Assembly (NCBI GenBank): GCA_946535455.1
Contig: CAMNDO010000003.1
Coordinates: 1-16,005 of the forward strand
Reading direction: 5' to 3'
DNA length: 16,005 bases
From: an uncultured Caryophanales bacterium
GTDB taxonomy: Bacteria > Bacillota_I > Bacilli_A > RF39 > UBA660
The stretch's first letter is position 1. Each line of letters opens with the position of its first letter. The position numbers and the translations under genes were made by a program. Positions 2,509-14,307 of the stretch are shown here, piece by piece. Under the pieces are notes generated by a model. It ran no database searches, was not told the origin of the DNA, and saw only the letters and a program-made list of their open reading frames with translations.

Positions 2509-2964
2509 ATGAGATGGATAAAAAAACATATTACTATCATCGTAATAGTAGTGGTTATCCTTTTATTAATAGGAGGTTTTTTCCTTGCGAAAGATATTTT
2601 CTTTCCAAATGAAAACAAAGCCATTTATGGAACTCGTTTAGAAGGAAGAGAAAAAGTAACCATCAGTAAAGAAACAAAAAACAAAGTAAAAGAATTATTA
2701 CAAGAAGGAACTGAAAAGGTAGATGTGAGAGTAGCCGGTAGAATTATTTATATCCATATTTATGTAACAGGAGATACTCCACAAGAAAAAGCAAAAGAAA
2801 TGGGAAATAAATCTTTAGAAGCATTTTCTGATGCCGAAAAATCTTATTATGATATTCAAATTATGATCAATCATAACGAGAATCAATCCCAATATCCAAT
2901 CTTAGGATATAAACACCATACTAAGACAGCAATTGTATGGACCAAAGATAGGGCGGCGAGTTAG
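2509..2964 (+). CDS. Small one-pass membrane protein of unknown function
   Basis: This gene encodes 151 aa starting at ATG 2509, chosen because the upstream in-frame ATG at 2482 lies in the -10 box. A short basic N-terminus (RWIKKH) is followed by one strongly hydrophobic helix at about residues 8-27 and then a soluble domain of about 120 residues. The positive-inside rule places that domain outside the cell. The soluble part contains alternating beta-type stretches (VDVRVAGRIIYIHIYV) and an amphipathic helix (EKAKEMGNKSLEAF), suggesting a small alpha/beta fold. There is no lipobox. I do not recognise the family. The stop is 1 bp before the start of the GGDEF-sensor gene, so co-translation is likely, and the extracytoplasmic domain could be an accessory to that sensor (inference only). 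Confidence 0.8.
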   Translation: MRWIKKHITIIVIVVVILLLIGGFFLAKDIFFPNENKAIYGTRLEGREKVTISKETKNKVKELLQEGTEKVDVRVAGRIIYIHIYVTGDTPQEKAKEMGNKSLEAFSDAEKSYYDIQIMINHNENQSQYPILGYKHHTKTAIVWTKDRAAS

Positions 2965-2965
2965 T

Positions 2966-5002
2966 ATGAAAAAGAAAGTATTGATTATTATCCCCATCAT
3001 CATTGCAGCAGTGGCTTTCTTTTTTGTCTATCGTTATTACAACAAAGAAGATAAAACTACGACATTAACCGTTGCGCAAAAAAAATGGGTAGAAGAAAAT
3101 AAAGGAACAACCTATGACTTTGAAGTCATCAATGATTATCCGTTATATGGAACCAATGGAGAAGGAGTTATTTTTGATTTTTTAGCAGACTTTGAAGAAC
3201 AAATTGGTATGGAATTTAATAAAATTCCATATTTGAAAACATCCACTCCTACAACAGATTCTTTAAGAATTCGTATTTTAGGAAATGATGCGAAATTAGA
3301 AGAAAAAGACTTACTTCTATTTAATGATAATTACGTAGCGGTAGGGAAAACCTATCAAAGAATCAATCATATTTCTGATATGAAAAACATGGTTATTGGT
3401 ACCTTAAAAGAAGATTCAGAAGAAGTGAGTTTCTATTTAAAAAGTGGAAACAATCTTTCTTATAAAGGATATGAAAATATTACAGACTTATACAAAGCAT
3501 TGAATGAATCAGCAGTCAATATGATTGTGGTTCCTAATGTAATGTATTTAGATTATACAATTGAGAAAAATAAATATTCTGTGAATTATTATTTCACGGA
3601 AATGAAAAAACAAATTGTATTAACACTAAGTGATAATAAGAATTTAAATGGTATTGTGACAAAATACTATAATAAGTGGAGACAAACCAAATATATTGAA
3701 GAGTATAATAATGCGTATTTAAATTATTATTTAGAAAAAAATAAGTTAGATGCTAAGACAAAAGCAACTTTAATTTCGAAAAACTATGTATATGGTTATG
3801 TAGAAAATCCTCCATATGAATTAAAAGTCAATGGAAGAGTTGCTGGTATTGCAGGAGAATATATTGATCGTATTGGAAGACTAGCGAATATTAATTTTAA
3901 ATATAAAAAGTATTCCAGTAAAAAAGATTTACAAGAAGCGATTGATGAAGGAAAAATAGATGTTTATTTTGATTATTATAATTATAGTAATGATAAATAT
4001 CTTTCTACTTTATCTACCTTTATTGAGGATTATGTCATTTTAGGAAGACAAGAGGATAACCATATTGTGAATTCTTTTGAGAGTTTAAAAGGAAAAGAAA
4101 TTGCTATGGTATCGGATGATTCTTTATATAATTATTTTTCTACCAACTCAAGAGCCAATATTAAAGAATATAAAAATATTGATACTCTATTAAGAGAAGC
4201 AAAAGATCGTATTATTGTAGTAGATAGTGAAATTTATTCTTACTATCAAAATAATAAATTTAAGAAATTAAAATTATTATATAAATCGACTATGATGAAT
4301 GATTATAAGTTTATGGTAAAAAATAATAATGATGCATTCTATGATTTATTCAATTATATTATTAATACCAATTCTTATTATAATTATCGTAATTCAGGAA
4401 TTGAGAATTTAAATGCATCTATTTTAGAAGATTCTACATTAGAACAAGTATATATGATTGTACTAATGATTATCTTTACTCCGGTTATTGTTTTAATTGT
4501 ATTATGGTTAATCTTTAAGAAGAAAAAAGAAAAGAAAAAAGTAAAATTAACAGATCGTCATAAATATACCGATATGTTAACTTCATTAAAGAATCGAAAC
4601 TATTTAAATATTAAGATGAAAGAATGGGAAGATTGTGAAGTATTCCCACAAGCGATCGTCATGGTAGATTTGAATAGTGTAAAATACGTAAATGATAATT
4701 ATGGTCATGAAGAAGGAGATCAATTAATTATCAAGGCAGCTGGAATTCTAGTAAATACACAATTAGAGAATAGTGAAATTATTCGTACCGATGGAAATGA
4801 ATTCTTAATCTACTTAATTGGATATAGTGAAAGACAAATTAGTACATATACCAAAAAATTATCAAAAGAGATGAAGGCATTACCACATGAATTTGGAGCT
4901 GCGATTGGATTTAGTATGATTACAGATGAAATTAAAACATTAGATGATGCCATTAATGAAGCAACATTAGAAATGATTACGAATAAAGAAGAATATAAGT
5001 AA
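2966..5002 (+). CDS. Membrane sensor with two SBP_bac_3-like modules and a degenerate GGDEF domain
   Basis: This gene encodes 678 aa starting at ATG 2966, 1 bp after the upstream stop. In order: a signal-anchor helix at about residues 5-23; a first binding-protein-like (Venus-flytrap) module at about 40-265, opening with a BvgS-like segment (KKWVEENKG); a second module at about 275-490, beginning YVYGYVENPPYEL; a second transmembrane helix at about 495-516; a basic linker; and a cytoplasmic GGDEF domain at about 531-678. The metal-binding Asp (D568 in VDLN) and the K-x-x-ND...GHxxGD nucleotide-binding stretch are kept. The signature itself reads DGNEF (609-613) instead of GG[DE]EF, with Asn where the second metal carboxylate normally sits. 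No RxxD inhibitory site precedes it. It probably senses an extracellular small molecule, with an output that is either no diguanylate cyclase activity or an altered one. It sits in an operon with a small membrane protein and YihY. Confidence 0.85.
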   Translation: MKKKVLIIIPIIIAAVAFFFVYRYYNKEDKTTTLTVAQKKWVEENKGTTYDFEVINDYPLYGTNGEGVIFDFLADFEEQIGMEFNKIPYLKTSTPTTDSLRIRILGNDAKLEEKDLLLFNDNYVAVGKTYQRINHISDMKNMVIGTLKEDSEEVSFYLKSGNNLSYKGYENITDLYKALNESAVNMIVVPNVMYLDYTIEKNKYSVNYYFTEMKKQIVLTLSDNKNLNGIVTKYYNKWRQTKYIEEYNNAYLNYYLEKNKLDAKTKATLISKNYVYGYVENPPYELKVNGRVAGIAGEYIDRIGRLANINFKYKKYSSKKDLQEAIDEGKIDVYFDYYNYSNDKYLSTLSTFIEDYVILGRQEDNHIVNSFESLKGKEIAMVSDDSLYNYFSTNSRANIKEYKNIDTLLREAKDRIIVVDSEIYSYYQNNKFKKLKLLYKSTMMNDYKFMVKNNNDAFYDLFNYIINTNSYYNYRNSGIENLNASILEDSTLEQVYMIVLMIIFTPVIVLIVLWLIFKKKKEKKKVKLTDRHKYTDMLTSLKNRNYLNIKMKEWEDCEVFPQAIVMVDLNSVKYVNDNYGHEEGDQLIIKAAGILVNTQLENSEIIRTDGNEFLIYLIGYSERQISTYTKKLSKEMKALPHEFGAAIGFSMITDEIKTLDDAINEATLEMITNKEEYK

Positions 5003-5896: not shown

Positions 5897-7978
5897 ATGA
5901 AAAATATCAAAAATGGATTCCGTAAATGGAAAAAGAATTTCATAAAATATATGAAAAGAGTACGAAAAGAACACTTGATTTATGAATACATGAAAAACAA
6001 TGTTTTGTTTTTAACATTCGTAATCGTTTGTGTATTAGAATCCACTGTACTTCGTTTCTTTTGTATGCATTCCTTAGAAAATTTCCTATCTTGGAAAGCC
6101 ATTCTAGGGGATTTAATCGTGGTTGTTTTTGCGGGAAGTTTTGGATATTTATTCAAACCAAAGAATCGCTTTTATTATTACTTTGGATTTAATGCTTTCT
6201 TTACCGCAATCTGTATTATCAATTCTGTTTACTATACCTTTTATACTTCATTTGCTTCTATTTCAATGTTATCTTTAACACAATATATTGGAGATGTAGG
6301 AGATGCTGTAGTAGAAAATGTATTACAACCAAAAGATTTATTATATTTAATAGGACCACTTGTATTACTAGTTCTTCATGTTCGTTTGAAGAAGAAAAAA
6401 TATTATAAAAAAGTAGAATTAAAGGGAGAAAGAAGAAGAAAAACTTTTAAAACTTTAGGAGCTTCTGGAGCGTTATTAGTGATTTTCTTATTTACATTAT
6501 CTTCCTTAGATGTATCGAGATTTCTAAAACAATGGAATAAAGAATATATTGTTATGAGATTTGGTATTTATATTTACCAAGCAAATGATGTAGTGACATC
6601 TATTCAACCAAAAATTAATTCTATGTTTGGTTATGATAAAGCAAGAAAAAGATTTTATGAGTATTTTGAAATGGTACCAGAAAATCCTAACAAAAATGAA
6701 TATACCGATCTATTTGAAGGAAAGAATGTAGTGGTCATTCATGCAGAAAGTATGATGACCAATGCGATGGACTTAACATTCAATGAAAAAGAAGTGACGC
6801 CTAACTTAAATCGTTTGGCAAGGGAAGGAATGTTTTTCTCAAACTTTTATTCTCAAGTGAGTGTGGGAACCAGTAGTGATTCGGAATTAACTTATAATAC
6901 ATCGTTAATGCCTACAAAGAGTGGTACGGCATTTGTATCTTATTCAGATCGTAGTTATATTGGAATACCTGATTTATTAAAAGAAAAAGGATATTATACA
7001 TTTAGTATGCATGCCAATAATGCAGATTTCTGGAATCGAAGAGCCATGCATAATAAACTAGGATATGATAAGTTTTATAGTAAAGTAGATTATGAGATTT
7101 CAAAAGAAAATGTCATTGGATTAGGACTTTCGGATAAAGAATTCTTTAAACAATCGATTGAGAAGATGGAAAAAATCAATGAAGAACATGAGAAATGGTA
7201 TGGGTTATTGATTATGTTATCCAATCATACTCCATTCTCTGACGTAGATAAATATGGAGAATTCCCTGTCGATATGAAGGAAACCATTACCCATGAAGAT
7301 GGCACAACAGAAGAAGTGGTTTATCCTTATATGGAAGGAACCAAATTAGGAAATTATTTCAAATCTCTTCACTATGCCGATGAGGCACTAGGAGATTTGA
7401 TTCAAGGAATGGATGAGAAAGGATTATTAGAAAATACCGTTGTTGTGATCTATGGTGATCATGATGCGAGATTATCGAGAAGAGATTATAATAGATTATA
7501 TAACTATGATAAAGAAACCAATGATATTTTAGAAGAAGAAAATGAAAACTACAAAGAGTATGATTCCTATCAATATGAACTAGGTCGAAAAGTGCCATTC
7601 ATTATTTGGATAAAAAACAGTGTAGGAACGAAAATTAATCAAAAGAATGAGAATGTGATGGGAATGTATGATATTGTCCCAACACTAGGAAATATGTTTG
7701 GTTTCTATAATCGATATGCATTAGGTCACGATATCTTTGAAATCAAAGAGAATAATATCGTAGTATTTCCAAATGGAAATTGGGTCAATAATAAACTATA
7801 TTACAATGCCCAAAAAGCATCTTATTATCCATTATCGGAAGAGGAAATTACAGAAGAAGAAATTACCAATCATACAGAATATACCAATCAATTATTAGAT
7901 GTTTCCAATGATATTATCGTTTTTGATTTATTGAATGAAGATAAAAGAAAAGCCATGGAAATGATAGAGGAGAAATAA
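5897..7978 (+). CDS. LTA synthase family (LtaS-type sulfatase-fold phosphoglycerol transferase)
   Basis: This gene encodes 693 aa starting at ATG 5897, with a GAGGT ribosome-binding site. Five N-terminal helices (about residues 35-53, 69-86, 93-115, 147-164, 187-204) precede an extracytoplasmic sulfatase-fold domain, the LtaS architecture. LtaS polymerises glycerol phosphate from phosphatidylglycerol into lipoteichoic acid; some paralogues are primases. Active-site motifs visible: HAESM with metal-ligand Glu 284, the nucleophile region GTSSDSE at 324-330, SMHANN...FWNRR, LSNHTPF, and YGDHD with D521/H522. Aligned without gaps to the S. aureus motif GKTSDAE, the catalytic Thr position is Ser 326, although the neighbouring Thr 325 could serve with a one-residue shift. 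The protein carries a C-terminal tail of about 100 residues after the catalytic core. A 1-bp gap to the next gene indicates an operon. Synthase versus primase or another polymer substrate cannot be decided from sequence. Confidence 0.92.
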   Translation: MKNIKNGFRKWKKNFIKYMKRVRKEHLIYEYMKNNVLFLTFVIVCVLESTVLRFFCMHSLENFLSWKAILGDLIVVVFAGSFGYLFKPKNRFYYYFGFNAFFTAICIINSVYYTFYTSFASISMLSLTQYIGDVGDAVVENVLQPKDLLYLIGPLVLLVLHVRLKKKKYYKKVELKGERRRKTFKTLGASGALLVIFLFTLSSLDVSRFLKQWNKEYIVMRFGIYIYQANDVVTSIQPKINSMFGYDKARKRFYEYFEMVPENPNKNEYTDLFEGKNVVVIHAESMMTNAMDLTFNEKEVTPNLNRLAREGMFFSNFYSQVSVGTSSDSELTYNTSLMPTKSGTAFVSYSDRSYIGIPDLLKEKGYYTFSMHANNADFWNRRAMHNKLGYDKFYSKVDYEISKENVIGLGLSDKEFFKQSIEKMEKINEEHEKWYGLLIMLSNHTPFSDVDKYGEFPVDMKETITHEDGTTEEVVYPYMEGTKLGNYFKSLHYADEALGDLIQGMDEKGLLENTVVVIYGDHDARLSRRDYNRLYNYDKETNDILEEENENYKEYDSYQYELGRKVPFIIWIKNSVGTKINQKNENVMGMYDIVPTLGNMFGFYNRYALGHDIFEIKENNIVVFPNGNWVNNKLYYNAQKASYYPLSEEEITEEEITNHTEYTNQLLDVSNDIIVFDLLNEDKRKAMEMIEEK

Positions 7979-8611: not shown

Positions 8612-8639
8612 AAAAAAAAGAACCAGATTATTCATCTGG
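8612..8639 (-). terminator. Intrinsic terminator of the LCP gene (minus strand)
   Basis: On the minus strand, CCAGAT and ATCTGG (8639-8634 and 8628-8623) form a 6-bp stem with a 5-nt loop, followed by TTC and eight T (8622-8612). The TAA stop of the LCP gene (8630-8628) lies at the loop/stem border. It is tail-to-tail with the plus-strand terminator at 8584-8607. Confidence 0.75.
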
Positions 8640-10598
8640 ATCTTCTGTACTTGGTGTTGTATTTTCTCCTGGGGTGGTAGAAGAATTATTTTCTTCTTCC
8701 TCTTCTTCAGTTGTGGTATTTCCGGTTTCTTTTTCCTTCTTTTTCTTTTTTTCTTCTTCTTCCTCTTTTTCCTCTTTATCAGAAGATAAGGTTAATACTA
8801 GTGGATCTTTCATATGATCAATTCTTGTTCTTACTGGATAACTTTGATCGACAACGGTACCACTCTTTCCTTTAAAGGTAAGTGTAATTCCGTATTGCGT
8901 AGCCGTTGCTTTTGCTTGTGCTTCGGTATCTCCCGTAAAGTCAGGAAGAAGACTATAAAGTGTATTATTATTGTAAGGTCCTTCTCCAATAATCTTTTTC
9001 TTATAAGGTTGATTGATAGAGAAATGGAACTCTGTAATATTTTTGTGATCTACTAATTCTAAGTTTTCTTTCATGGCTTGAACAATATCTTTACGACTAC
9101 TTTTATTTGGAATATAGTTCCATAGAACCATTCTAGCTCTTTCATCATAAATCATTTGTCCAGTACCTTGTAAGTATAATTGTTGAATATTGACTAGGTT
9201 GGCATCATCTGCACTTAAACTTCTTTTTACTAAATCTTTCGCAACATTGTAGAAAGAAAGGATTTGTTTGGTTGTAAGGTTGGTATCCAAACTGTTGGAA
9301 ATGGTATTTAAAATATTGACGAATTTACTTACTTCTGTAATTCCTTTGATTTTGTTGATTAATGCTTTAATAATTTCTTGTTGATGTTGTCCTCTACCAA
9401 TATCTCCATTTTGTAAGGCTTTTCGGTTTCTTGCGAATACCAAAGCTTGTTCTCCATCTAATGTTTGGAATCCTGGTTGAATACAAACTTCTTCTTCACG
9501 ATTAGAGTTATCCGTACATAGAACTTGTTCTACATTGACATCCACACCACCTACGGCATTGACTAATTTCACAAGTCCTTTGAAGTTGATTTTGGCATAA
9601 TAATCAATTTTGACATCAAAGTAGTTTTGAATGGTTTGAATCATACAATCATTTCCATAGGCTGCGGCATGTGTAATTTTATTTTCTGGTCTACCACTCC
9701 AACAAGCAATTGGAACATAACTATCTCTTGGAATCGATACCATAGTCGCATTTAAGGTTTTCGGATTGAAGGTAATTAAGATTAAGGTATCTCCGTTCGC
9801 AATCGCATTCTTGGTTAGAACTTCATCCGTAGAATCAATTCCCATCAAAAGAATGGTAAAAGGTTCACTAATATCTTTTAATGCAGAAGCTGTCTCAATC
9901 TCAGAAGTATCTGCTTTTTTCATTTTTTTATCTTTACTGATAATGACTTTCGTGTCTGTGGAAATATTTTCATATCCTGTAATACCAGAAAACATAGATA
10001 CATAACTATCAGTTACAAACATTGCATCTAATTCTTTGGAATACATATCTACAAGCATAGTAGTGTAATCATCATACTCTACAATTTCATTTTCATCTTC
10101 TAAGGTATATTCTTTAATAATTTCTTTTGGAATAATATATCCTTCTGGAGATTTCTTATCACTCAAAATGGCAATCTTCATATCGGATACATCTTCAATC
10201 GTATTCGCAGGATTGTGACTCATCACTAACAAATCAGAAGTATAAGTAATCACTTCTTTATTCAATCCATCAATCTTTCCATAGATGTAAGAAATGACTC
10301 CTCCTACAAATAAACAAAGAATAGAATAAACAATCAAAAAGAATAAAAAGAATCCTCTGTGATACTTTCGATATTTTCTTTTGTGATAACGTATCATTTT
10401 TAAAATACAAAAGATATCAGTGGCTCCTATGATTCCCATTACAATATAACGAATGAGATCCTCTATGGAATCTAATAAAAAGATTTCATAAAATGCGAAG
10501 AATGAAGAACAAATGGCAATGATTAAAAAGAATGTTAGGATTCCATTTAAGGCTCCATAGTTTCTTCGTTCTACTCGTCTTTCTGTGACATGATTCAT
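8628..10598 (-). CDS. LCP (LytR-CpsA-Psr) family protein with binding-protein-like and PASTA-like modules
   Basis: LCP enzymes transfer undecaprenyl-linked anionic glycopolymers to peptidoglycan outside the cell. This gene encodes 656 aa from ATG 10598; a TTG at 10613 is rejected because the GGGAGGG ribosome-binding site lies between it and the ATG. In order: three N-terminal helices (about residues 20-42, 48-69, 82-106); a partial binding-protein-like module (about 110-235); the LCP domain (about 243-400) with LLMGID, NGDTLIL, SIPRDSYV (R291, D292), NKITHAAAYG, GGVDVNV and the FARNRK...GDIGRGQHQQ active-site segment; a helical region; a PASTA-like domain (about 549-606: PDFTGDTEAQAKATA...GTVVDQSYP); and a Glu/Lys/Thr/Ser-rich tail (about 607-656). 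Cys pairs in the extracytoplasmic LCP domain suggest disulfides. It is divergent from an autolysin gene and shares a regulatory region with it. Confidence 0.93.
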   Translation of the reverse strand: MNHVTERRVERRNYGALNGILTFFLIIAICSSFFAFYEIFLLDSIEDLIRYIVMGIIGATDIFCILKMIRYHKRKYRKYHRGFFLFFLIVYSILCLFVGGVISYIYGKIDGLNKEVITYTSDLLVMSHNPANTIEDVSDMKIAILSDKKSPEGYIIPKEIIKEYTLEDENEIVEYDDYTTMLVDMYSKELDAMFVTDSYVSMFSGITGYENISTDTKVIISKDKKMKKADTSEIETASALKDISEPFTILLMGIDSTDEVLTKNAIANGDTLILITFNPKTLNATMVSIPRDSYVPIACWSGRPENKITHAAAYGNDCMIQTIQNYFDVKIDYYAKINFKGLVKLVNAVGGVDVNVEQVLCTDNSNREEEVCIQPGFQTLDGEQALVFARNRKALQNGDIGRGQHQQEIIKALINKIKGITEVSKFVNILNTISNSLDTNLTTKQILSFYNVAKDLVKRSLSADDANLVNIQQLYLQGTGQMIYDERARMVLWNYIPNKSSRKDIVQAMKENLELVDHKNITEFHFSINQPYKKKIIGEGPYNNNTLYSLLPDFTGDTEAQAKATATQYGITLTFKGKSGTVVDQSYPVRTRIDHMKDPLVLTLSSDKEEKEEEEEKKKKKEKETGNTTTEEEEEENNSSTTPGENTTPSTEDPDE

Positions 10599-10629: not shown

Positions 10630-10658
10630 ATTATATCGAAAATTTTGTTTTTTATCAA
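10630..10658 (-). promoter_or_regulatory. Sigma-A promoter of the LCP gene
   Basis: On the minus strand, TTGATA (10658-10653), a 17-bp spacer and TATAAT (10635-10630). It is 31 bp upstream of the start codon, with a clear -35, unlike the divergent autolysin promoter. Confidence 0.83.
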
Positions 10659-10683
10659 GTGGACAAAACAGGTCGCTGTCAAT

Positions 10684-10722
10684 TGTAAATATCGTGTAAA
10701 CACAAAGTAAAATCAATGTAAA
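10684..10722 (+). promoter_or_regulatory. Array of four 11-bp-phased hexamers: WalR-box-like (or PhoP-box-like) site
   Basis: TGTAAA at 10684-10689, TGTAAA at 10695-10700, AGTAAA at 10706-10711 and TGTAAA at 10717-10722, each separated by exactly 5 nt, so all lie on one helix face. The first pair is a full match to the published WalR (YycF) box TGTWAH-N5-TGTWAH. WalR controls cell-wall hydrolases, and the gene downstream on the same strand is one. The array ends 27 bp before the autolysin -10. Read on the minus strand it is TTTACA-type repeats, which also resembles a PhoP box directed toward the LCP gene. The repeats are seen directly; regulator identity is inference. Confidence 0.72.
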
Positions 10723-10746: not shown

Positions 10747-10755
10747 TGATATAAT
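10747..10755 (+). promoter_or_regulatory. Extended -10 promoter of the autolysin gene, no clear -35
   Basis: TGATATAAT (10747-10755) is an extended -10. At 16-18 bp spacing upstream only poor matches to TTGACA occur (such as CATTCA at 10727-10732). A weak -35 directly after a phased activator-like array suggests an activator-dependent promoter. Confidence 0.75.
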
Positions 10756-10785: not shown

Positions 10786-13700
10786 ATGAAGAAAATATTT
10801 ATGATTTTCCTATTTTTTCTATCATTTTTCATGGTAAAAAATGTTTATGCCTTCGACTCTAATAACTATAAAAATCGAAATCTTTGCGGTGGTTTTGAAG
10901 TAGCAGGATTTCATGCGGATGGTGTCATCGATAAAGTAGAGTGTTTTGACACGTATGAAAAAGCAAGAACGTTTATGAAAAACAATGGCGCAATCGATTT
11001 GGCCATTATGGCAAAAGTCAATGGACAAACAAAAATTATTGATGCGAATGTTGCTTTGTTAGATTTAAGTGTAAATCCAGAAACCTTAACTTATTTTTAT
11101 ACCAATCCGAATTTAACAGGTTCTTCTTATACCTATATGGACACAGGATCTTTATATGGTGGAGTAGATGGGGTGCATCTAGATACCGCATATTCTTCTA
11201 CCGCAAATGTTTGGACAGCCAAGGTAAGAATTGGAAACTTCACAGGATGGATTCGTCAATCGGCTTATGAAATTGTCCCAATCACTTGGGTGAAATCTTC
11301 TAGTTCCTATACGGTAACTGCGAATGATATTAGACATAATTATGTTTCTAAAATTCAAGAGACCTATTCTGGTTCAAAGGGAAGTACCATTGGACCAAAG
11401 CCAACTATGTTAAATGTAGGAACGTATTATAGTTATGATGGACACTATTTCTACAAAGATAGAACAACGATGATTAAAGATTATAAAAATGGAAATTATA
11501 ACAATGCTGTGAATAAAAACAATGTTTACTACAACTATTATATGTATTTATCCAATCATACAAGAACCAATTACTCAAGTATCAATATCGATGAATACAT
11601 TCGAAACAATTTAGGATATAAGAAAAATGTTTATGGAAATAGTGCAAGTAGTGGAACGTCACGTCTTTATGGAATGGGAAATTTCTTCTACTATGCACAA
11701 GAAAAGTATGGAGTAAATGCCATCCTTTCGTTGAGTTTAAGTCGAAATGAAACAGGAAATGGTACGAGTAACTTAGCAATCAATAAAAACAATGGATTTG
11801 GATTAAATGCAGTAGATTCTAATCCAACACAAGCAGCGGACTGGTATGCAACTTTCTCAAGTAGTATTTTAGGGTATGCTTCCAAATGGATTACCTATGG
11901 ATATGCACACCCAAGAGATTGGAGATACTTTGGTCCACAATTTGGAGATAAATGGATTGGAATGAACGTAAAGTATGCTTCTGATACTTACTGGTCTGAG
12001 AAAATGGCTGCCAATTATTATGCTTTGGATAGGGCTTTTGGATTACAAGACTATAACTATTACCAATTAGGAGTCGTGAATGGACCAACCATTGCTTATA
12101 AAGATCCAAATACTTCTTCAAAACAAATTTATACCTATCCAGAAAAAGAAGATGCTGTTGTGATTGTAGGAGAAGTAACAAAGAATAACGAGAAATGGTA
12201 TCAAGTAGTGAGTGATTTAAATATCAATTCGAACTACAACGAAATCACTAGTGGAAATTACAATTGGAATGCGACAGTTTATGTCAAAGCTTCCGGAGTA
12301 ACCAAAATCAATACTGGTAAAAATGGATATATTTCTCCAAACCGAGTATTTGAATATCAAAATAAAAATTATGAATATAATTTATATATTGAAAATACAG
12401 AGTTGAAACCAAAAGTAGCAATTACTACAAAAAACACACCATACTATTATGATAGTGCGTTGACTTCTAAGACAGGAACTACATTATTAAAAGATCGTTA
12501 TGTTATGGTTTATGCGGTAGCTTATCAAAATAGTATTCCAGTTTCTTACTTAGTAACGAGTGATTATTGGTATGATCAAAAAGAATGGATTTCAGCAGAC
12601 TCTATTCAATTCAAAGATCTTTCTTATGGAAAAGTCAGTGTAACAGTATCGGGAAATCAATATACTTGGGTAAATTCCAATACACAAGATATTAAAGATA
12701 CTTTAATTAGTGGACTATACACAAATTCTTATGTTCCCGTATTAGAATCTTTAAAAGTAGGAAATAATACTTGGTATAAAGTTCCAGTTAATTTAACAAG
12801 TAACAATAATATTTATGGTTATACTTTAGCAGCTGCTCCTGGAGTATCCATTACGCTATCAAAATCAGTGATTCAAAACACACCACCAGTGATTACTGCG
12901 AGTGACAAAGTGTTAAACATCGGAGATGCTTTTGATCCAAAAACGGGAGTTACGGCAAGTGATGCAGAAGATGGAAATATTACCAGTAAACTTCAAGTAA
13001 CAGAAAATACTGTGAACACAGGAAAAGCAGGGGAATATAAAGTTACTTATAAAGTAACAGATTCTAAAAATCTAACGACAACAAAAACCATTAAAGTAAC
13101 CGTAAAAGGCAATCAAGTACCAGTGATTACTGCGAGTGATAAAACATTAACGGTAGGAGATAGCTTTAATCCAAAACAAGGTGTCACAGCAAAAGATGCA
13201 GAAGACGGAGATTTAACGAGCAAGATTCAAGTAACCACGAATACCGTGATTACAACAAAAGTAGGAACCTATAAAGTGGTGTATACGGTAACCGATAATA
13301 ATAAACAAACTGCAACAAAAGAAATTAAAGTGATTGTACAACCAAAATCGGAACCAGTTACGATCGAAGGAAAAACCATTGAGGAATTACTCAATACTCA
13401 AAAAGAAGGAGGCTTCTATTTAGATAATTTAGTATGGGATGCGAATCAAAAGAAATTTGTCATTAGTGGATATTTAATTATTTTAAATCAAAATAACACA
13501 AATAAAGAGTATTCTCTTCTAGCAGTAGATAAAAATACAAAGAAAATATATATTAGTAAAATTGCTGCCTGGAAACAAAATACCCCATACGATTTAGGAA
13601 GCAGTAATGGAAATAATTATTCCGATTCATGGTTTAAAGGAACAATCGATTACAGTAATATTCCTAATGGAGATTATGATTTGTATATGTTGGCAAATTC

Positions 13701-14307
13701 TAACGCAGGATTTACAATCTCTCAAGTTACCAATCTTTTTAATAAAAAAATTAGTAGAAGAGGAAATGATGCACTTCATGGATATGAGTATAAAGTGCAA
13801 CAAAAATTGAAACAAAAACAAATTGAATTATCTGTACGAGAAGAGTTATATACAACGGAAGAACCACCAACAGAAAGAAATATGATAAATGGTTATGCAG
13901 AAATTAAATTTAAGAATAATAAACTATATATATTAGGATACTCATATGATTATAATGGAATCTATAACAATCCAAAAGAAATTAACAGAAAAATCATACT
14001 AGAAAATACAAGCAACTATCAACAACACGTTTTTGATGTTACAACAAGACAAGGACCTTCTTTGATTCAAACGGTCGATGGAAAAGATAAAACCTATGCT
14101 TGGTATGAGGGAGAATTAGATATCTCTAGTTTGGATAAAGGTACATATGCATTATTGATTTATACCAAAACTTCCAATTCTACAAATTATGATGATATCA
14201 AAGATGTATTAAGAATGTTAAATGTAGAAGCAACAATGAATGGAAAAAATTATAAAGTAACCTATAATATGACTCGACAAAATCGAATTGAATTCATCAT
14301 AAAATAA
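10786..14307 (+). CDS. Secreted multidomain N-acetylglucosaminidase (GH73-type autolysin)
   Basis: This gene encodes 1173 aa from ATG 10786 with an AGGAGG ribosome-binding site at 10773-10778; the TTG at 10780 is too close to that site. A signal peptide is present (1-22, cleavage after VYA). An N-terminal region (about 23-190) has Cys 34 and Cys 53, the only Cys I see in the mature chain, and an SH3-like stretch. The glucosaminidase domain (about 285-410) has the putative catalytic Glu 322 in SRNETGNGTS, followed by the NNGFGLNA segment. SH3-like wall-binding segments follow (about 425-510 and 545-690). Next are two Ig-like repeats (701-778 and 779-856) that open PVITASDK and contain DAEDG, similar to DUF5011/HYR-like modules. 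The C-terminus holds two divergent copies of a beta-rich domain (about 875-1017 and 1032-1173). There is no LPXTG anchor, so retention is probably through the SH3 or C-terminal modules. The enzyme would cut the glycan strand of peptidoglycan. WalR-like control is suggested by the upstream array. Confidence 0.92.
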   Translation: MKKIFMIFLFFLSFFMVKNVYAFDSNNYKNRNLCGGFEVAGFHADGVIDKVECFDTYEKARTFMKNNGAIDLAIMAKVNGQTKIIDANVALLDLSVNPETLTYFYTNPNLTGSSYTYMDTGSLYGGVDGVHLDTAYSSTANVWTAKVRIGNFTGWIRQSAYEIVPITWVKSSSSYTVTANDIRHNYVSKIQETYSGSKGSTIGPKPTMLNVGTYYSYDGHYFYKDRTTMIKDYKNGNYNNAVNKNNVYYNYYMYLSNHTRTNYSSINIDEYIRNNLGYKKNVYGNSASSGTSRLYGMGNFFYYAQEKYGVNAILSLSLSRNETGNGTSNLAINKNNGFGLNAVDSNPTQAADWYATFSSSILGYASKWITYGYAHPRDWRYFGPQFGDKWIGMNVKYASDTYWSEKMAANYYALDRAFGLQDYNYYQLGVVNGPTIAYKDPNTSSKQIYTYPEKEDAVVIVGEVTKNNEKWYQVVSDLNINSNYNEITSGNYNWNATVYVKASGVTKINTGKNGYISPNRVFEYQNKNYEYNLYIENTELKPKVAITTKNTPYYYDSALTSKTGTTLLKDRYVMVYAVAYQNSIPVSYLVTSDYWYDQKEWISADSIQFKDLSYGKVSVTVSGNQYTWVNSNTQDIKDTLISGLYTNSYVPVLESLKVGNNTWYKVPVNLTSNNNIYGYTLAAAPGVSITLSKSVIQNTPPVITASDKVLNIGDAFDPKTGVTASDAEDGNITSKLQVTENTVNTGKAGEYKVTYKVTDSKNLTTTKTIKVTVKGNQVPVITASDKTLTVGDSFNPKQGVTAKDAEDGDLTSKIQVTTNTVITTKVGTYKVVYTVTDNNKQTATKEIKVIVQPKSEPVTIEGKTIEELLNTQKEGGFYLDNLVWDANQKKFVISGYLIILNQNNTNKEYSLLAVDKNTKKIYISKIAAWKQNTPYDLGSSNGNNYSDSWFKGTIDYSNIPNGDYDLYMLANSNAGFTISQVTNLFNKKISRRGNDALHGYEYKVQQKLKQKQIELSVREELYTTEEPPTERNMINGYAEIKFKNNKLYILGYSYDYNGIYNNPKEINRKIILENTSNYQQHVFDVTTRQGPSLIQTVDGKDKTYAWYEGELDISSLDKGTYALLIYTKTSNSTNYDDIKDVLRMLNVEATMNGKNYKVTYNMTRQNRIEFIIK
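12886..13353 (+). repeat. Tandem Ig-like repeats (2 x 234 bp) within the autolysin gene
   Basis: Two consecutive 78-residue units start with the same 20-bp DNA run (from 12886 and from 13120) and share PVITASDK, the GD-F-PK-GVTA-DAEDG core and a Y-V-Y-VTD end. The unit looks like the bacterial DUF5011/HYR-type Ig-like domain, probably a spacer in the wall. Confidence 0.85.
13408..14304 (+). repeat. Divergent duplicated C-terminal domain of the autolysin
   Basis: Residues 875-1017 and 1032-1173 share an ordered set of landmarks at protein level only: KFVISGY / KLYILGY, NTNKE / NNPKE, SWFKGTIDYSNIPNGDYDLYM / AWYEGELDISSLDKGTYALLI, and YEYKV / KNYKV near the end. The fold is not one I can name; it is beta-rich and may bind wall polymer. 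Confidence 0.6.

Follow-up and report, generated by a model that had tools for sequence, protein, structure and literature searches.

A Helically Phased TGTMAA Pair Upstream of an Autolysin Gene Recurs at Division and Envelope Genes in an Uncultured Genus of Bacilli

Results

The window analyzed here (the whole stretch of 16,005 nucleotides) belongs to a genome of an uncultured genus of Bacilli, which is 60% complete and comprises 661 kb. It harbors a gene of the LytR-CpsA-Psr (LCP) family and, divergently oriented, a gene for a glucosaminidase with Ig-like domains (Table 1). The latter is referred to as the autolysin; its original description as a secreted glucosaminidase agrees with the Pfam match and with the N-terminus, from which secretion was judged by eye. 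Elsewhere in the window, positions 2933-5002 encode a protein joining an SBP_bac_3-like region (22.9 bits, under the Pfam cut-off) to a GGDEF domain, and positions 5897-7978 encode a membrane protein of the Sulfatase family, LtaS-like by eye. Genes resembling this Sulfatase gene by eye in two other genomes have a TGTAAA pair upstream (L145/L179 and L189).

Table 1. Features of the window around the autolysin promoter.
Feature	Position	Strand	Evidence and remarks
Autolysin: secreted glucosaminidase of 1173 aa (counted from the ATG at 10786), Ig-like domains	10786..14307	+	PF01832 2.9e-10; PF16403 3.1e-22 (2 stretches)
LytR-CpsA-Psr (LCP) protein with C-terminal PASTA match	8628..10598	-	PF03816 3.8e-46; PF03793 7.2e-6
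Divergent LCP promoter TTGATA-N17-TATAAT	10631..10659	-	Sequence
Core pair TGTAAA-N5-TGTAAA, conserved	10684..10700	+	Distance to the -10: 66 bp (first box), 55 bp (second box)
Facultative in-phase extension AGTAAA-N5-TGTAAA	10706..10722	+	Distance to the -10: 44 bp (first box), 33 bp (second box); not conserved as such
Further half-site TGTCAA	10677..10682	+	73 bp upstream of the -10; about 2 bp off lattice
Further half-site TGTCAA	10737..10742	+	13 bp upstream of the -10; on lattice
Autolysin promoter: extended -10 TGATATAAT without a -35	10747..10755	+	Sequence; TGN-TATAAT common in homologues

Reading of the sequence confirmed three TGTAAA hexamers (10684-10689, 10695-10700, and 10717-10722) and one AGTAAA (10706-10711) at a pitch of exactly 11 bp. 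The array ends 27 bases before the TATAAT (10750-10755) of an extended -10, whose TG occupies 10747-10748. No -35 can be recognized at this promoter, because the best match to TTGACA at spacers of 16, 17, and 18 is only 2 of 6. The arrangement of array and promoter is as originally described. The four-hexamer pattern occurs once in the window and in none of 200 dinucleotide shuffles, even with three mismatches. The two-hexamer form with at most one mismatch gave three matches, all overlapping pairs of the array, against a shuffle mean of 0.41, and three matches were reached in 2 of the 200 shuffles.

Conservation was studied in a genus set of 39 genomes, which are fragmentary assemblies, many of them incomplete, and the weight of each absence reported below depends on how complete the genome concerned is. 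The autolysin had a match in 38 of the 39 genomes (some of them partial), and a second collection contributed 67 loci with the LCP protein. From the autolysin and LCP loci 43 upstream regions were taken, distinct in their last 150 bases and still including near-duplicates (e.g., L062, L065, and L067). An exact TGTMAA-N4/5-TGTMAA pair at most 100 bp upstream of the -10 is present in 33 of the 43 autolysin promoters, compared with a shuffle mean of 0.09 and a maximum of 1. It is absent from the other 10, and the most divergent promoters (L092 and L094) have no recognizable pair. TGN-TATAAT is present in 38 of the 43, while the best -35 score averages 2.33 of 6 against 2.62 in shuffles. Distance statistics used 38 rows, namely those in which pair score and LCP promoter score are both at least 10: the first box is placed 63-66 bp from the -10 in 32 of them and 74-77 bp in the remaining 6. 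What relatives conserve of the array first described is thus its first pair, and not the complete set of four hexamers. An inverted TTTACAA also recurs 19 bp upstream of the -10 in about 10 of the 43 promoters, near the place of a would-be -35 and at the wrong spacing for one.

The logo of the motif was built from 68 conserved sites, chosen by a score which favors A or C at position 4 and allows one other mismatch in twelve. Spacing is N4 in 35 of them and N5 in 33. Position 4 of the 136 half-sites is A in 104, C in 32, and T in none, and the following base is A in all 136. The best-conserved base is the G of the half-site (2.7-2.9 bits), present in 135 of 136. Outside the pair, the 43 promoters contain 21 TGTMAA half-sites which fall on a 10.4-bp lattice with a mean cosine of 0.70; none of 20,000 random sets reaches this value, in a control that treats related genomes as independent samples, which they are not. 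When four near-duplicate promoters were left out, 20 half-sites remained and again 0 of 20,000 random sets reached the value. Relatives thus add half-sites in register with the pair. The longer array of the window can be regarded as a species-specific extension, because the extra half-sites of relatives share the same 10.4-bp lattice. Among the nine promoters listed, the window has the most half-sites, namely the four hexamers and the two TGTCAA of Table 1, which the original description does not mention. By sequence comparison, the repeated hexamers mark a real, conserved regulatory site.

A single site coordinating autolysin and LCP, as was originally suggested, is not supported. The LCP gene has a promoter of its own, with a spacer of 17 in the 38 kept rows of 43 (in a search over 16-18 that slightly favors 17). 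The distance from this promoter to the pair varies, with a standard deviation of 9.8 bp against 3.9 bp for the autolysin -10 (38 of 43 rows), and phasing outside the main cluster is poor (0.18 in 16 rows, against 0.81 in 6 rows). Co-regulation of the LCP gene was rejected on these distances, and LCP is probably not a target of the pair. In a related lineage including Onthousia, LCP mostly has a gene for another secreted protein as its divergent neighbor (L066-L107), and the intergenic region often carries, by eye, a different element, TGTMAAGTTKACG, in several cases with TTTGTCGAA near the -10.

The pair was also found upstream of other genes. Followed by TATAAT, it gave 73 matches over the 39 genomes (two of which overlap at one site of G061), against 10 for the reversed pattern. 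A pair scan of seven good genomes gave 70 matches against 37 in the control, i.e., the background equals about half. In the 60%-complete window genome, two exact TGTAAA pairs were found against two in the control, so that pair matches exceed the reversed-pattern controls, a comparison relevant to the original grounds for refutation, across the genus and in the seven genomes, and not in the window genome itself. The second exact pair of that genome is located just past a gene end, beside an apparent terminator; we take the gene to be ssb, and the match looks like a gene-end or terminator coincidence. The same appears to apply to pair matches in five genomes at the end of a gene which is presumably tsf. 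By our own count, with Pfam run on one representative of each new family, 30 of the 70 pairs precede mraZ (7), a DcuC-like gene (6), the autolysin (5), MscS (5), mraY (4), ftsK (2), or divIC (1). A few further families recur in two genomes.

Besides the autolysin, the target that recurred strongly in the genus-wide search was mraZ, the head of the division and wall cluster, and this gene was found in 35 of the 39 genomes. Of its upstream regions, 31 had sufficient length for scoring; 28 of these contain an exact pair (shuffle mean 0.04), and the distance to the -10 is 64-66 bp in 26 of the 31. In this scoring L234 was misanchored by the pattern (the pair is visible in its sequence), L231 was too short, L211 is probably one helix-register off, and for L218 and L219 the score refers to a neighboring N3 pair. 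A -35 is present at the mraZ promoter, although imperfect. The pair-to--10 distance is about 65 bp at autolysin and mraZ, 53-55 at mraY, 44-45 at ftsK, and 32-33 and 23 at DcuC-type genes. For 11 hand-picked target distances, among them the off-phase 41 bp of divIC (L246), the phasing was matched by 6 of 20,000 random sets, again with related genomes treated as independent. Specifically, the pair of the gene for a DcuC-like membrane protein lies 23-33 bp from a TATAAT (L239, L247, L256, L263, L280, and L282) and might be bound by a repressor or constitute a different element. No TATAAT was found downstream of two of the six MscS sites in the stretch shown (L255 and L285). Owing to these two sites and to the closeness of the DcuC-like pair to the -10, the DcuC-like and MscS sites may represent another element.

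Discussion

The array was originally read as a doubled WalR box that resembles a PhoP box on the other strand, and thus as the site of a WalR- or PhoP-type response regulator of the OmpR family. Two half-sites of the window match the published WalR form TGTWAH-N5-TGTWAH (PMC4168254) exactly, pitch and autolysin target fit, and the WalR (YycF/VicR) box likewise consists of direct repeats of a hexamer, spaced by roughly one turn, before autolysin and division genes. The relatives, however, conserve TGTMAA, with N4 as common as N5 and never a T at position 4, and the pair sits near -69 or at one-turn steps away from it. OmpR-type regulators, recognized by Trans_reg_C, are present in 31 of the 39 genomes, but none was found in the other eight (G000, G009, G016, G019, G020, G022, G033, and G061), which are mostly 60-88% complete (G016 94%, G033 91%) and which all keep the pair at autolysin, mraZ, or both. 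WalRK has been described as occurring in all Firmicutes and as essential for viability (PMC9210968). Here, six representative OmpR-type regulators scored 137-183 bits against a YycF/WalR cut-off of 340, and by eye the regulators form several patchy groups. Response_reg matches occur in all 39 genomes, exactly one each in G020 and G061, and this one must be Spo0A, because full-length Spo0A accounts for it. The PhoP box of B. subtilis is made of TTNACA-like repeats. The window resembles it in having four such helix-phased repeats in the opposite reading, and differs in that only one pair is conserved in the genus and that the OmpR family as a whole, PhoP included, was not found in the eight site-bearing genomes. 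On gene presence, consensus, and spacing, WalR or PhoP was rejected as the general binder and is quite unlikely, and since several relatives retain the site although neither regulator was detected in them, another protein probably reads it. The pair could instead be a variant of the tandem Spo0A box, with Spo0A running a wall regulon, which we consider improbable. At abrB, tandem 0A boxes are found at a 10-bp pitch, and the 0A box TGTCGAA shares TGT...AA half-sites with the pair. Spo0A_C was detected in 37 of the 39 genomes, including that of the window and even species lacking a strong SpoIVA match; the recognition segment of the Spo0A copy in the window genome (SRVERAIRHAIEV) is identical to that of solved Spo0A chains; a C at position 4 makes the half-site similar to TGTCRAA; and canonical 0A boxes occur in 4 of the 43 autolysin regions. 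Moreover, in the four genomes where Spo0A is decayed or was not found (G003, G008, G015, and G021) position 4 is A in all 12 half-sites counted and C in none, the corresponding numbers elsewhere being 92 and 32. On the other side, exact TGTCGAA on either strand is present in 19 of the 37 spo0A upstream regions (read between -150 and +60 relative to the start as called, a stretch that varies since some starts are called too far upstream) and the TGTMAA pair in none, while among the 31 mraZ regions the pair is present in 28 and an exact 0A box in none. C4A and G5A each lower the affinity of C. difficile Spo0A about 10-fold (PMC3485338), and TGTAAAA combines both changes; C4 is found in 32 of the 136 half-sites, always followed by A. 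The pair also persists where the protein has decayed. In G003, G008, and G015, where no SpoIVA match exceeded the cut-off, Spo0A has no receiver left and the sequence of its recognition helix is SNIESSIRY, TNIESSIRY, or SSVESNIRR. Autolysin and mraZ nevertheless retain an intact pair in these genomes, to which the altered proteins may yet be able to bind. G021 is not counted as a natural knock-out, because its missing Spo0A_C may be an assembly loss (SpoIVA is present). The spo0A loci of G003, G008, and G015 have no exact box, which is only suggestive, because 15 of the 34 other loci have none either (several carry near matches). Spo0A was set aside for two reasons: the canonical box is found at many spo0A promoters and the pair at none of them, and the pair persists in genomes with a decayed Spo0A.

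Two regulators connected with cell division were also weighed. MraZ, which would have to bind the pair in a second mode, was the first alternative considered once pairs were met before mraZ. It occurs in 35 of the 39 genomes, the pair sits in its promoter, and it is known to bind a series of direct repeats (PMC8475190). Nevertheless, all 32 mraZ regions examined by eye carry separate AGTGG-type repeats at a 10-bp pitch. Both elements are direct repeats within the mraZ promoter, but the MraZ repeats read AGTGG and sit downstream of the -10, while the autolysin promoters carry the pair and by eye no AGTGG-type repeats. MraZ was dropped on this finding: because the same promoters carry the AGTGG repeats separately, the MraZ-type site and the pair are different things, and a second binding mode appears highly improbable. 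WhiA as the binder is unlikely too, although it would be compatible with the explanation preferred below. HTH_WhiA was found in 38 of the 39 genomes with one match each, and WhiA activates ftsZ, ftsW, and ftsK in Streptomyces, with a division-gene regulon reported for S. venezuelae (PMC3781837). In B. subtilis, by contrast, it is described as regulating no division or segregation gene (PMC10714963). The published core is GACAC (GAYACRCY in Mycoplasma gallisepticum), neither of which is contained in TGTMAA or its reverse TTKACA, and so this near-universal protein does not match the pair by its published core. Finally, the pair might be an A/T-rich UP element read without a dedicated protein, being AT-rich, upstream of promoters, and helically phased. 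UP elements are A/T tracts, unlike the half-site with its G as the best-conserved base, and this possibility seems very unlikely. The CtsR operator RGTCAAANANRGTCAAA is similar to the pair as well.

Several observations were made at the loci examined for these regulators. At the mraZ loci L209-L238, a triplet of the AGTGG-type repeats, close to the known MraZ type, is located between the -10 and the start codon. The receiver-less Spo0A remains an open reading frame at L358 (891-1361), L359 (934-1407), and L360 (1735-2385), corresponding to G003, G008, and G015. Upstream of spo0A, TTCGACA (the reverse 0A box) often lies by eye within the loop of an apparent terminator hairpin of the preceding gene, of the form GGACAAG-TTCGACAAAA-CTTGTCC followed by a T run (L352 at about 1530-1609, and other spo0A loci).

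Taken together, we consider it likely that the phased TGTMAA site is read by one protein, probably an activator of a small envelope regulon, distinct from WalR/PhoP, MraZ, and Spo0A, all of which are unlikely binders in view of the site and gene distributions described. A sequence-specific DNA-binding protein would dock on one helix face upstream of its promoters. The evidence is comparative and establishes the conservation of the sequence, its geometry, and the set of genes that carry it. The obligatory element would be a single TGTMAA pair, its half-sites spaced by one turn and centered near -69. Where further half-sites are added in register toward the promoter, as they are in the window, the bound array would become longer and, we infer, its occupancy would rise cooperatively. 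The phased pair near -69, together with an extended -10 lacking a -35, fits an activator touching RNA polymerase, which would be contacted from a fixed face at promoters where the -35 is missing (autolysin) or imperfect (mraZ). Class I activator sites are helix-phased, e.g., those of CRP at -61.5, -71.5, and -82.5. The pair is similar in lying at about one-turn steps from the core promoter and differs in being a direct repeat, unlike the CRP palindrome. The proposed activator would serve the autolysin, the dcw cluster via mraZ, mraY, and the genes of an MscS-type channel and a DcuC-type membrane protein, joined in certain species by ftsK or divIC. That these genes share the site suggests that the cell coordinates wall cleavage with division and with the synthesis of new wall.

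A broader reading is put forward tentatively, as a real possibility rather than an expectation, namely that a walled, partly spore-forming lineage of Bacilli lacking WalR runs a WalR-like regulon of wall and division genes via a different activator that reads TGTMAA repeats. Among the titles and abstracts of the literature surveyed, none describes this motif or a loss of WalR in this lineage. If the reading is true, the logic of the WalR regulon (autolysin, dcw, mraY, and a mechanosensitive channel) would have persisted while the regulator is now a different protein, and the coupling between wall cleavage and division could be rewired to a protein other than WalR. The pair-bearing promoters would then provide a short list for finding that regulator.
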